A stretch of 64,000 nucleotides of DNA from Sulfurospirillum oryzae (GTDB lineage Bacteria; Campylobacterota; Campylobacteria; Campylobacterales; Sulfurospirillaceae), in contig NZ_JANZKZ010000002.1 in NCBI RefSeq assembly GCF_025770725.1, positions 248,001 to 312,000 of the forward strand. Reading direction: 5' to 3'. The notes below the pieces were generated by a model. That model did not search any database. It was not told where the DNA came from and was given only the letters and a program-made list of their open reading frames with translations. Each line of letters starts with the position of its first letter. Within the stretch, counting starts at the first letter, position 1. Shown one piece after another: positions 8,523 through 47,613 of this stretch. The translations under genes were made by a program, and so were the position numbers.

Positions 8523-9816
8523 CTTTTTTTCCAAAAAATTTATAGAAGAATCCCTCAATGATTTTAAGCGGTTCACGGTTGATCGCTAGGGCTCCTTTAG
8601 GGATGTCTTTGGTTACAGTTGTACCTGAAGCAATGAGGACATCATCCGCAATGGTAACAGGCGCAACAAGTTGAGTATCGCTACCGACGAAAACATTTTT
8701 GCCGATGATGGTTTTGTATTTTGCTTTACCATCGTAGTTACATGTAATCGTCCCACAGCCGATGTTCGTTCCCTCATCAATGGTAGCGTCACCCAAATAA
8801 CTCAGATGTCCCGCTTTAACCCCTTTGAGAGTGGACTTTTTAATCTCGACAAAATTGCCAATGTGTGTATCTTCGATGATTGAGTCTGGTCGAACACGAG
8901 CCATAGGCCCTATGTCAGAGTTTTTGATGACACTTTTTTCAATGACCGAGTGCGCTTTAATATGCGCATTTTCTAGCATCGTTCCTTTAAGCAATGTGAC
9001 ACCATTTTCAAGTTTACATTCACCTTTTATCTGCACATCCGCTTCAATGTAGATGGTTTGAGGTAAGCGCATACTCACACCTTGTTCCATAAAACGGCGT
9101 TTAATGCGATCTTGCATCAACTCTTCGGCTTGGGAGAGGTGATATTTAGAGTTGACACCCATAAAGGTTGCTTCATCCACAAAAAGGGCTTTTACTGTTT
9201 TGTTCTCGACATTGGCTAAAGCAATTAAGTCCGTGATGTAATACTCTTTTTGACTGTTTTGGTTGGAAAGTTTAGGAAGATTCTCTTTTAGAAAATCGGT
9301 CTTAAAGAGGTAAACACCCGCATTTACGGCAGTTACTTTTTTCTCTTCAACACTCGCATCTTTCTCTTCAACGATTTTTTCCACGTTATAATGGGCATCC
9401 ATAATGACACGCCCATAGCCAAATGGCTCTTTACATGTAAACGCACTCATGACAACGTCTGCTTCTAAATGTGTAAAATTTTGCATATTTTCTGCTTCAA
9501 GCAAAGGCATATCGCCATTGAGTACCAGCAAACGCTCATATTTTGGTACAACACCACGGATCGCACCACCCGTACCTGGGAAGTTTTGATGGTCTTGTAT
9601 GCTATAGTGGATATTTTTAAAATGACGGTTCATTTTTTCTTGAACAAGGTCTGCTTGGTGGTATAAAATAACATGGATGTCGTCGCTGATCTTTTGTGCC
9701 TCTTTGATGATGTGGTATAACATCTCAAAGCCGCTGATCTCATGAAGTACCTTTGGAAGTGTGGACTTCATGCGAGTTCCAAGCCCCGCAGCCATAATCG
9801 CAATTGAAATATTCAT
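8515..9816 (-). CDS. glmU: UDP-GlcNAc pyrophosphorylase / glucosamine-1-phosphate acetyltransferase
   Basis: Makes UDP-N-acetylglucosamine, the precursor of peptidoglycan and lipid A, from glucosamine-1-phosphate. The N-terminal uridylyltransferase domain starts MAAGLGTRMKSTLPKVLH (residues 8-25), with LNGDMPLL later. The C-terminal half is a left-handed beta-helix of hexapeptide repeats with GHLSYLGDATIDEGTNIG and GTITCNYDG. The 433-residue length is normal for Campylobacterota. Two TTACATGTAA palindromes lie inside it; one falls on the conserved TITCNYDG motif and may be constrained by the protein. Confidence 0.97.
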   Translation of the reverse strand: MNISIAIMAAGLGTRMKSTLPKVLHEISGFEMLYHIIKEAQKISDDIHVILYHQADLVQEKMNRHFKNIHYSIQDHQNFPGTGGAIRGVVPKYERLLVLNGDMPLLEAENMQNFTHLEADVVMSAFTCKEPFGYGRVIMDAHYNVEKIVEEKDASVEEKKVTAVNAGVYLFKTDFLKENLPKLSNQNSQKEYYITDLIALANVENKTVKALFVDEATFMGVNSKYHLSQAEELMQDRIKRRFMEQGVSMRLPQTIYIEADVQIKGECKLENGVTLLKGTMLENAHIKAHSVIEKSVIKNSDIGPMARVRPDSIIEDTHIGNFVEIKKSTLKGVKAGHLSYLGDATIDEGTNIGCGTITCNYDGKAKYKTIIGKNVFVGSDTQLVAPVTIADDVLIASGTTVTKDIPKGALAINREPLKIIEGFFYKFFGKKDA

Positions 9817-10675: not shown

Positions 10676-11483
10676 CGCTCACTCTATTAAAAATACTCCA
10701 ATAGGTTTTGAACTTCACCATCCGCTTTTTGATGCAACCATTTTAAGACAAGGTGCGCAACTGATTCATTTTCAGCCTAAAGGTGGCGAGCCACTTTTTT
10801 GGAGTGCGGAGCTTTCAACGTTTGAAAAAGGCAAAGCATTTCGAGGTGGCATTCCTCTGTGTTGGCCGTGGTTTGGAAAAGCGGGCAGCCCCGCTCATGG
10901 ATTTGCTCGTATTTTAGAGTGGGATTTGATCAAACATGAAGAAAGCGAAGAGGGTGTGCAACTCATCTTTGAACTGCATGACTCCGCAACGACACGTGCT
11001 CTGTGGTCTTATGCGTTTACCACACGACTCGAAATGAACTTGGGGCGCGATGTTGAACTCTCTTTACATGTAAACGCAGAAAAAGAGAGCACCGCTGCAC
11101 TTCACTCCTACTTTATATGTAAGCATATTAACGATGTGAAAGTGATAGGGCTTGGTCGCACTTATAACGACTCATTACAAAATGGAGCGTCGTGTAAAAG
11201 TGGAGATGAATTTTTACATGTTAATCAAACCATTGATCGTATTTACACACATCCAGAGCCAGAAACTCTGCTTCAAGAGAATGATCGTACCATAAGCATT
11301 TTTCACGAAAATCATAGCGATGTTGTTGTGTGGAATCCATGGCTTGAGGGTAGTTCAAAACTAGCTGATATGAAAGAGGATGACTATACACAAATGCTTT
11401 GCATTGAAAGTGCGAGAATCACAGAGCCTTTGAAGTGCCAAGATCGTTTACATGTAAAGATCAAAACCCTTTTGCTGCTTTAA
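10629..11483 (+). CDS. D-hexose-6-phosphate mutarotase-like (YeaD) aldose 1-epimerase family protein
   Basis: About 284 residues of the galactose-mutarotase fold. YeaD-type members interconvert anomers of hexose 6-phosphates. Visible family motifs are FRGGIPLCWPWFG, AHGFAR, the LHSYF substrate-binding segment and VVWNPW near the C terminus, with a conserved Glu in CIESAR. The start is uncertain because the gene overlaps the 3' end of fliP. ATG at 10629 is the first plausible codon, and family alignment suggests that homology begins near residue 20. The last 36 bases overlap the convergent gene. Two TTACATGTAA copies fall in it, one right at that overlap. Confidence 0.85.
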   Translation: MDGIFWCKNSWRVSINAHSIKNTPIGFELHHPLFDATILRQGAQLIHFQPKGGEPLFWSAELSTFEKGKAFRGGIPLCWPWFGKAGSPAHGFARILEWDLIKHEESEEGVQLIFELHDSATTRALWSYAFTTRLEMNLGRDVELSLHVNAEKESTAALHSYFICKHINDVKVIGLGRTYNDSLQNGASCKSGDEFLHVNQTIDRIYTHPEPETLLQENDRTISIFHENHSDVVVWNPWLEGSSKLADMKEDDYTQMLCIESARITEPLKCQDRLHVKIKTLLLL

Positions 11484-45080: not shown

Positions 45081-45155
45081 TGGAGCGGGTGACGGGAATC
45101 GAACCCGCTACTTTCAGCTTGGGAAGCTAACACTCTACCGATGAGTTACACCCGC
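45081..45155 (-). tRNA. tRNA-Gly (anticodon CCC)
   Basis: A full cloverleaf of 75 nt with encoded CCA on the minus strand. The acceptor stem is GCGGGTG / CACCCGC with T as discriminator, the D stem ACTC / GAGT, the anticodon stem TTAGC / GCTGA with loop TTCCCAA, and the T arm GCGGG-TTCGATT-CCCGT. The loop has T33 followed by CCC, so it reads GGG; the usual Gly isoacceptors of these bacteria have GCC or TCC. Confidence 0.93.
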
Positions 45156-45288
45156 ATTTTAAAGGAGGCATTATAGCACACTCAGCTATTGATGTCGTCA
45201 AAAATAGTTACATGTAAAAGGAAACTTTAGCTTTAGAAGGTAGTTTTCAAAATGCTATTTTTTTCAAACTTGCCTGTGCCATAATGAT

Positions 45289-45454
45289 TAGACTTCTTTC
45301 ATAACCCATTGAAAAAAGAGTATCGCTTATAGTACATCACTTTTTAAAACTAAAAATATCGCCATAGCTTTGGCTATGACTCAATTTTGAGTTTCAAAAA
45401 TTAACGCACTCTAAACAAACTCTTTATCTTTTCAAGGGTTATGAAAGAAGTCTA
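45289..45454. repeat. 166-bp full-length imperfect palindrome, MITE-like
   Basis: The ends are perfect 19-bp inverted repeats TAGACTTCTTTCATAACCC (left 45289-45307, right copy inverted at 45436-45454). The homology continues inward with mismatches across nearly the whole element to a central hairpin CATAGC-TTTG-GCTATG near 45363-45378. The element could fold into one long hairpin as RNA or cruciform. It lies in the 322-base stretch between the tRNA and fumC and ends 24 bases before the fumC ATG, so it forms part of the fumC leader. It contains no ORF. I believe similar motifs recur in related genomes, but cannot check. Confidence 0.75.
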
Positions 45455-45477
45455 TTAAATGCTATAAAGGAGTCATT

Positions 45478-46869
45478 ATGGATTATCGAATTGAAAAAGA
45501 TACTATGGGCGAGATCAAAGTTCCCAATGAACGTTACTGGGGAGCACAAACTGAGCGTAGTTTGGAAAATTTTAAGATCGGCACAGAAAAAATGCCAAAA
45601 GAACTCATCCGCGCCTTTGCACTTTTGAAACGCTCTTTAGCATCCGTCAATCAAAAGCTGGGAAAACTTGATGCTAAAAAAGCAGGAGCAATCATCCAAG
45701 CATGCGACGAAATTCTTGCAGGAAAGTTTGACGGTGAATTTCCTCTTGCCATTTGGCAAACAGGCAGTGGCACACAGACCAATATGAACCTTAACGAGGT
45801 CATCGCCAATCGCGCGACAGAGATATTGGGAGGCGATTTTAGAAAAGAAAAACTCATTCACCCAAACGATCATGTCAATATGTCTCAAAGCTCCAACGAC
45901 ACGTTTCCAACAGCCATGCATATTGCTAGTGTCATCGAGATCGAAGAGCAACTGCTCCCTTCTTTAGAAAAACTCAAAGAGGCGTTAGAGTCCAAGGAGA
46001 AAGAGTTTGGCGGTATTATTAAAATAGGGCGAACCCACTTGCAAGATGCAACACCGCTTACATTGGGGCAAGAGTTTAGCGGTTATCGTAGTATGTTGGA
46101 GCACTCTTCTTCGCATATACTCCAAGCACTTGAGTCACTTCGTGAGCTTGCCATCGGTGGAACTGCTGTGGGAACAGGCATAAACGCGCATCCAAAACTC
46201 AGCGAGTTTGTCAGTGAAGAGCTGACCAAATTGACAGGCAAAACCTTTGTCTCGTCTCCCAATAAATTTCATGCTTTAACATCACACGATGCACTTGTGT
46301 TTGCGAGTGGAGCAAACAAAGGTTTAGCAGCAAACCTCATGAAAATAGCCAATGACATCAGATGGTTGGCTTCGGGTCCCCGTTGTGGTATAGGTGAGCT
46401 TTCCATTCCTGAAAATGAGCCTGGAAGCTCTATTATGCCTGGTAAGGTCAATCCAACCCAAGCTGAAGCTGTTACAATGGTTGCATGCCAAGTATTTGGT
46501 GCCGATACCGCTATTGCCTTTGGGGCAAGTCAAGGTAACTTTGAGCTCAATGTCTTTAAACCCGTCATCATCCTTAACTTTTTGCAACAAGTTAGGCTTC
46601 TTGGCGATGTCATGGAGTCGTTTCGTATTCATTGTGTGGAGGGCATTGAAGCCAATAGTGAGAAGATCGCACACAACCTTCACAACTCGTTGATGCTGGT
46701 CACCGCACTCAATCCTTACATCGGTTATGAAAATGCAGCTAAGGTGGCAAAGCTGGCGCATAAAGAGCATTTAAGCCTTAAAGAAGCATGCGTCAAGCTT
46801 TCTCTTTTAACGCCTGAGGAGTTTGACCGTTATGTCATTCCTTCCGAGATGATTCACCCTAAAGAGTAA
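45478..46869 (+). CDS. fumC: Fumarate hydratase class II
   Basis: Iron-free, oxygen-stable fumarase (463 residues) interconverting fumarate and malate. Signature [10 protein letters not shown], substrate motifs SGTQTNMN and [14 protein letters not shown], and the catalytic-His region [11 protein letters not shown] are intact. ATG preceded by AAAGGAGTCATT. It is a separate transcription unit from the TCA block, with the palindromic repeat upstream and a strong terminator downstream. Confidence 0.97.
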
Positions 46870-47476: not shown

Positions 47477-47613
47477 TGTAAGTATTTTTTTTACATGTAA
47501 AACAAGAATATGGCTGCATTGTTCGTAAACCAAGCCAATGTGTAGAAACATTTTTTGGATCATTTCAGTCAACTAAAAGTGATATTTGTATGACCGATAC
47601 GCATCTTTAGATA

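Follow-up and report, generated by a model that had tools for sequence, protein, structure and literature searches.

A 164-bp palindromic sequence directly upstream of fumC in Sulfurospirillum oryzae is almost certainly a MITE that, judging from its ends, its target sites and the distribution of its copies, was probably moved in trans by an IS5-family (ISL2-like) transposase and landed at the predicted start of fumC transcription. The assignment to a new MITE family of an already known kind of element is well supported: the sequence is of MITE size (164 bp, i.e. under 600 bp) and has no transposase ORF, it carries terminal inverted repeats (TIRs) flanked by a 3-bp target duplication, its copies are dispersed and their orthologous sites can be found empty, and there is an autonomous insertion sequence (IS) with the same ends. 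These features bear out the preliminary description of this region, which had proposed a mobile, non-autonomous element.

Like the Correia/nemis elements of Neisseria (~105 and 155 bp), the MITE is a short TIR element that contains no ORF, has the potential to form hairpin RNA, is scattered between genes in many copies, frequently right in front of a gene, and comes with internal-deletion variants. In contrast to Correia/nemis, it makes a 3-bp ANT duplication and is palindromic over nearly its full length, with no IHF site or promoter shown, and the 26-bp TIR of the Neisseria elements is unrelated. Correia elements are associated with a TA-type duplication. The present family adds to the Campylobacterota a MITE with an identified IS5 partner. 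No open-access paper dealing with both Sulfurospirillum and miniature inverted-repeat elements was found, which, given the incomplete coverage of the literature, is weak evidence of novelty.

Structure and borders of the element

Within the window (the whole 64,000-nucleotide stretch that was analysed), the full-length MITE copy occupies positions 45290–45453, with no strand assigned, as delimited by the inverted repeat, the 11 copies in the genome and the alignment of TIRs and target duplications. The perfect 18-bp left TIR, AGACTTCTTTCATAACCC (45290–45307, + strand), matches both ends of a 907-bp IS in a congener, G006, and the right TIR, found by inverted-repeat detection (45436–45453, − strand), is its reverse complement; across the 64 kb, the TIR 16-mer is confined to these two ends, in opposite orientation. 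The element is bounded on each side by ATT (45287–45289 and, from the flank alignment, 45454–45456), the 3-bp target duplication, and ATT or AAT is the duplication of the G006 IS copies, too. Between the TIRs, the two arms pair imperfectly as far as a central hairpin, CATAGC-TTTG-GCTATG (45363–45378), which is predicted to fold and has a terminator-like pattern on both strands. Folded as RNA, the 166-bp span that includes one base on either side of the element has a free energy of −53.6 kcal/mol (z = −9.2), whereas 200 dinucleotide-shuffled versions average −20.8 ± 3.6 kcal/mol and not one of them (0/200) is as stable. None of the ORFs of at least 60 amino acids in the window overlaps the element, and no outward promoter was found inside it on the fumC strand.

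The near full-length palindrome upstream of fumC with its perfect terminal inverted repeats, the central hairpin, the lack of an ORF and the 24 bases that separate the element from the fumC ATG (45478) had all been reported in the preliminary description, and all are present in the sequence. The size given there has to be revised, however: the inverted repeat is real, but the proposed 166-bp element with 19-bp TIRs (45289–45454) is too long, because the T at 45289 and the A at 45454 belong to the 3-bp target duplication. A 166-bp element that makes no duplication was considered and rejected; by eye, it gives gapless alignments at two loci, fumC in S. oryzae and a copy 3' of fumC in G017, but six other empty sites fit the element plus 3 bp.

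Distribution of copies and insertion sites

The genome of S. oryzae (G000; 2.63 Mb in 11 contigs) harbors 11 full-length copies, including the one at fumC, to which the identity is 85–95%, along with three remnants of 31–32 bp and three truncated copies; there are no further copies in the 64-kb window. Across the genus, matches were detected in 17 of the 24 genomes, with identity of up to 97%. Orthologous fumC genes were found in 15 genomes including S. oryzae, the 14 relatives being 88–98% identical, and the fumC leader is occupied solely in S. oryzae, all 14 relatives with orthologous fumC being empty at this site. The remaining ten full-length copies also have empty orthologous sites in relatives (10/10), and conversely, G017 carries a separate copy just 3' of fumC at a site that is empty in S. 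oryzae. The multiple copies and the vacancy of the relatives' fumC leaders, for both of which the preliminary description had called as a check, speak against a fixed structure at this locus. When the alignments are read by eye, the insert matches the element plus 3 bp to the base at six sites (3, 4, 5, 6, 7 and 11); at the others it deviates by one to a few bases, the discrepancy being 1 nt at fumC, whose leader evolves fast.

The search for short (2–9 bp) target duplications, proposed at the same time as that for empty sites, was likewise positive. Exact 3-bp duplications flank 26 of the 50 copies with good ends (12 ATT, 11 AAT, 1 ACT, 1 AGT and 1 AAG), compared with a mean of 11 and a maximum of 19 in 2000 trials in which the flanks were re-paired. 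None of the 11 full-length copies in S. oryzae lies inside a large ORF. According to crude, uncurated ORF calls, eight of the 11 are located no more than 30 bp in front of a predicted gene start. In the window, the same holds for 66 of 270 ATT/AAT sites that lie between genes, so that the comparison is only suggestive of a preference for gene leaders.

Another palindrome, TTTACATGTAAA, is found 29 times within one mismatch in the 64 kb, compared with 0.6 expected from shuffles (for example, at 9430–9441, 11063–11074, 45207–45218 and 47490–47501), and adjoins many MITE sites in the relatives as well.

The insertion in front of fumC

The gene for class II fumarase, fumC (45478–46869, + strand; an ORF named after the preliminary description and by sequence resemblance), has as its divergent upstream neighbour a tRNA-Gly (CCC) gene (45081–45155, − strand; tRNA match). 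Just upstream of the insertion, most of the 15 leaders of fumC share TGTGCCATAATGA, and the alignment of the fumC upstream regions from 15 species points to an extended −10 element, TGC-CATAAT (45277–45285, + strand). Since TGTGCCATAATGA is read as an extended −10, transcription of fumC is predicted to start near 45292, i.e. only a few bases into the MITE. The copy landed 4 bp past the predicted −10 box, and fumC would be transcribed from the conserved promoter with the MITE as a hairpin leader, so that the leader would have grown from about 25 nt to about 190 nt, with the long hairpin coming first. The fumC gene of this species has an unusual predicted hairpin leader that is worth weighing when its expression is compared across species.

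Whether the MITE now also alters fumC expression, be it by exaptation or as mild damage, is finely balanced; such an effect would add to the MITE explanation, not compete with it. An effect through the RNA hairpin or RNase III is plausible and is favoured because the insertion lies at the predicted transcription start: the 5' hairpin might stabilise the mRNA, RNase III might cut the hairpin, or a part of the transcripts might terminate early. The element is inserted between the −10 box and the Shine–Dalgarno sequence AAGGAG (45467–45472, + strand), which lies outside the hairpin in the leader fold and would be left free, and in Neisseria, MITEs in leaders act through RNase III or promoters, with Correia elements being bound or cut by this enzyme (PMC2649163, PMC10969869). 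Against this possibility, the pairing of the resident copies shows no sign of constraint (see below), the fumC copy itself having no ortholog for comparison.

The fumC ortholog in G005 (L205, G005:C1:1241118-1242503) contains one in-frame TAG.

Decay of resident copies and probable origin of the matched arms

The congeners, with their full, shortened, remnant or empty sites, provide a natural record of the birth, spread and decay of a palindromic element. At three orthologous sites (L259, L292 and L027), a remnant of 31–32 bp in one genome faces a full copy in another: site 2 has a remnant in G017 and full copies in S. oryzae and G001, site 3 has a remnant in G007 and a full copy in S. oryzae, and C3:226213 has a remnant in S. 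oryzae and full copies in G001 and G007. In the full copies, the collapse junctions coincide with short direct repeats, GAAAAAAG and GAAAGAAG, and because both junction points sit in such repeats, the collapse is as expected for slippage across the hairpin. An 89-bp version occupies site 5 in G017, and additional internal-deletion forms are found elsewhere. At the C3:226213 site, G006, G010, G005 and G004 (L385–L388) contain other inserts, of 89–149 bp, none of them clearly similar to the MITE.

Ten ortholog comparisons, all of copies other than that at fumC, which has no ortholog, yield 30 stem changes that postdate insertion; all 30 are one-sided and none is compensatory, and 24 of them switch a position between the paired and the mismatched state. 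A separate analysis of orthologous insertions gave a few two-sided differences, most of which come from a shifted alignment at a single locus. Because the stem changes are all one-sided, the resident copies decay as unconstrained DNA, and this speaks against the maintenance of an RNA function.

These one-sided changes also weigh against the reading that the element controls fumC as a fixed attenuator or regulatory RNA, i.e. a conserved leader hairpin kept by selection, which is very improbable. The stable fold, the predicted position at the very start of the fumC mRNA and the core hairpin, which resembles a terminator on both strands (2 such patterns compared with 0.1 expected), are all compatible with such a role, but the fumC leaders of 14 of the 14 relatives lack the element, it sits at many unrelated loci, and a search of Rfam produced, apart from tRNA, only generic hairpin matches below the cut-off. 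An ancestral regulatory function of the hairpin at fumC is accordingly largely refuted.

When single copies are compared with the family consensus, the same change is often seen in both arms (for example, AGATTTTTTTC in both arms of L007 and AGACTTCTTGC in both arms of L010). Among the two-sided changes at 46 loci, 85 are matched and 10 are unmatched, and the family alignment contains 102 matched two-sided cells compared with 27 in column shuffles, all these counts being inflated because they ignore the kinship of the copies. Covariation due to selection at the RNA level was considered as the cause and rejected, given this inflation and the lack of any matched change arising after insertion in the orthologs. 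For the latter reason, the matched changes probably arise on the mobile lineage, where the arms could be matched by template switching from arm to arm, by TIR conversion, or by selection for matching ends. There is a precedent for matched ends in single copies in ISWpi1 of Wolbachia, also of the IS5 family, one TIR of which is reported to have been converted to the sequence of the other (PMC3004938); ISWpi1, however, is an autonomous IS with short TIRs and its conversion was accompanied by inversion.

The partner insertion sequence

Scanning 84,980 species genomes for the TIR yielded 84 stretches, mostly from Sulfurospirillum and Sulfurimonas. In Sulfurimonas NORP9 (L102), the ends enclose a 907-bp element with AGT duplications, as identified by end pairing. 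It encompasses two overlapping ORFs that match HTH_Tnp_4, DDE_Tnp_4 and the NCBIfam IS5 model; PF13613 and PF13359 score above the cut-off, and NF033581 is matched below its curated cut-off by each half in both NORP9 and G006, probably because the transposase is split over two ORFs. G006 carries four copies of the 907-bp IS (L175, L182, L186 and L193) with ATT or AAT duplications, the same two-ORF layout as in NORP9 and ends that are identical to those of the MITE over 18 bp. G004, G005, G007, G011 and G022 carry a relative of this IS that is 916 bp long and whose ends (AGACATCTTGCAAAACTC) have diverged (loci L176–L178 and L180 in the first four of these genomes). When the two types are pooled, exact ATT, AAT or ACT duplications are found at all 18 listed IS loci with both ends. 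A single genus thus hosts two IS5-family elements, each in several copies, that are related but differ in length (907 and 916 bp) and in their TIRs.

The ISL2 group is characterised by a 3-bp target duplication of the ANT type. Similarly to the partner IS (~907–916 bp), the ISL2-group elements of the IS5 family, such as ISCaa2 and ISCaa3 of Amoebophilus, have two overlapping ORFs, a TIR of ~18–23 bp and a transposase with HTH and DDE_Tnp_4 domains. This resemblance and the ANT-type duplication, not a tree, are the basis for placing the partner IS in the ISL2 group. ISCaa2 and ISCaa3 are 914–916 bp long and their two ORFs are connected by a −1 frameshift (PMC3196728).

The MITE uses ends of this type but has no ORF, and its similarity to the IS is limited to the terminal 18–20 bp. 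Because just these ends are common to both, the MITE is not a simple internal deletion of the 907-bp IS, and the link between the two rests on their ends and choice of target. Under the trans-mobilisation scenario, the two-ORF 907-bp IS5-family transposase would recognise the 18-bp ends and insert the element at ATT/AAT, or rarely at ACT or AGT, duplicating 3 bp. The search for a transposase gene with the same ends, another of the checks suggested beforehand, thus turned up the 907-bp IS in the congener G006, and no matching IS5-type transposase was found in the S. oryzae genome. Because the matching transposase is gone from this genome, its copies should be immobile unless the enzyme is supplied from elsewhere.

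A MITE of the Tc1/mariner–IS630 type (or Correia type), with a 162-bp core, a 2-bp TA duplication and a DDE_3 partner, is suggested by the TA on both flanks of most copies but is extremely unlikely and was ruled out, given that the bases beyond the TA are repeated too (ATT..ATT or AAT..AAT), the empty sites fit a 3-bp duplication, no IS630-type DDE_3 domain (PF13358) was found in the S. oryzae genome, and the IS with these ends belongs to the IS5 family.

Palindromic elements in other genera

The same TIR delimits palindromic elements of ~267 bp in Sulfurimonas MAGs (L093, L097, L110, L115, L125 and L153) and of 80–95 bp in Alkanindiges (L122 and L124), most of them flanked by an ATT/AAT duplication. 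These elements fold over 72–85% of their length, and no similarity of their interiors to the fumC-type MITE is detectable. These observations suggest that IS5 elements of this kind have produced fold-back MITEs on more than one occasion. Extended to a general model, which we put forward tentatively, transposases of the IS5/ISL2 type would repeatedly spawn fold-back MITEs across genera, alike in their 18-bp ends and almost complete palindromy but unrelated in their interiors. On the mobile lineage, template switching or conversion between the arms, as the DNA is replicated or transposed, would keep the arms matched, with resident copies that only decay, down to the 32-bp remnant left by slippage.
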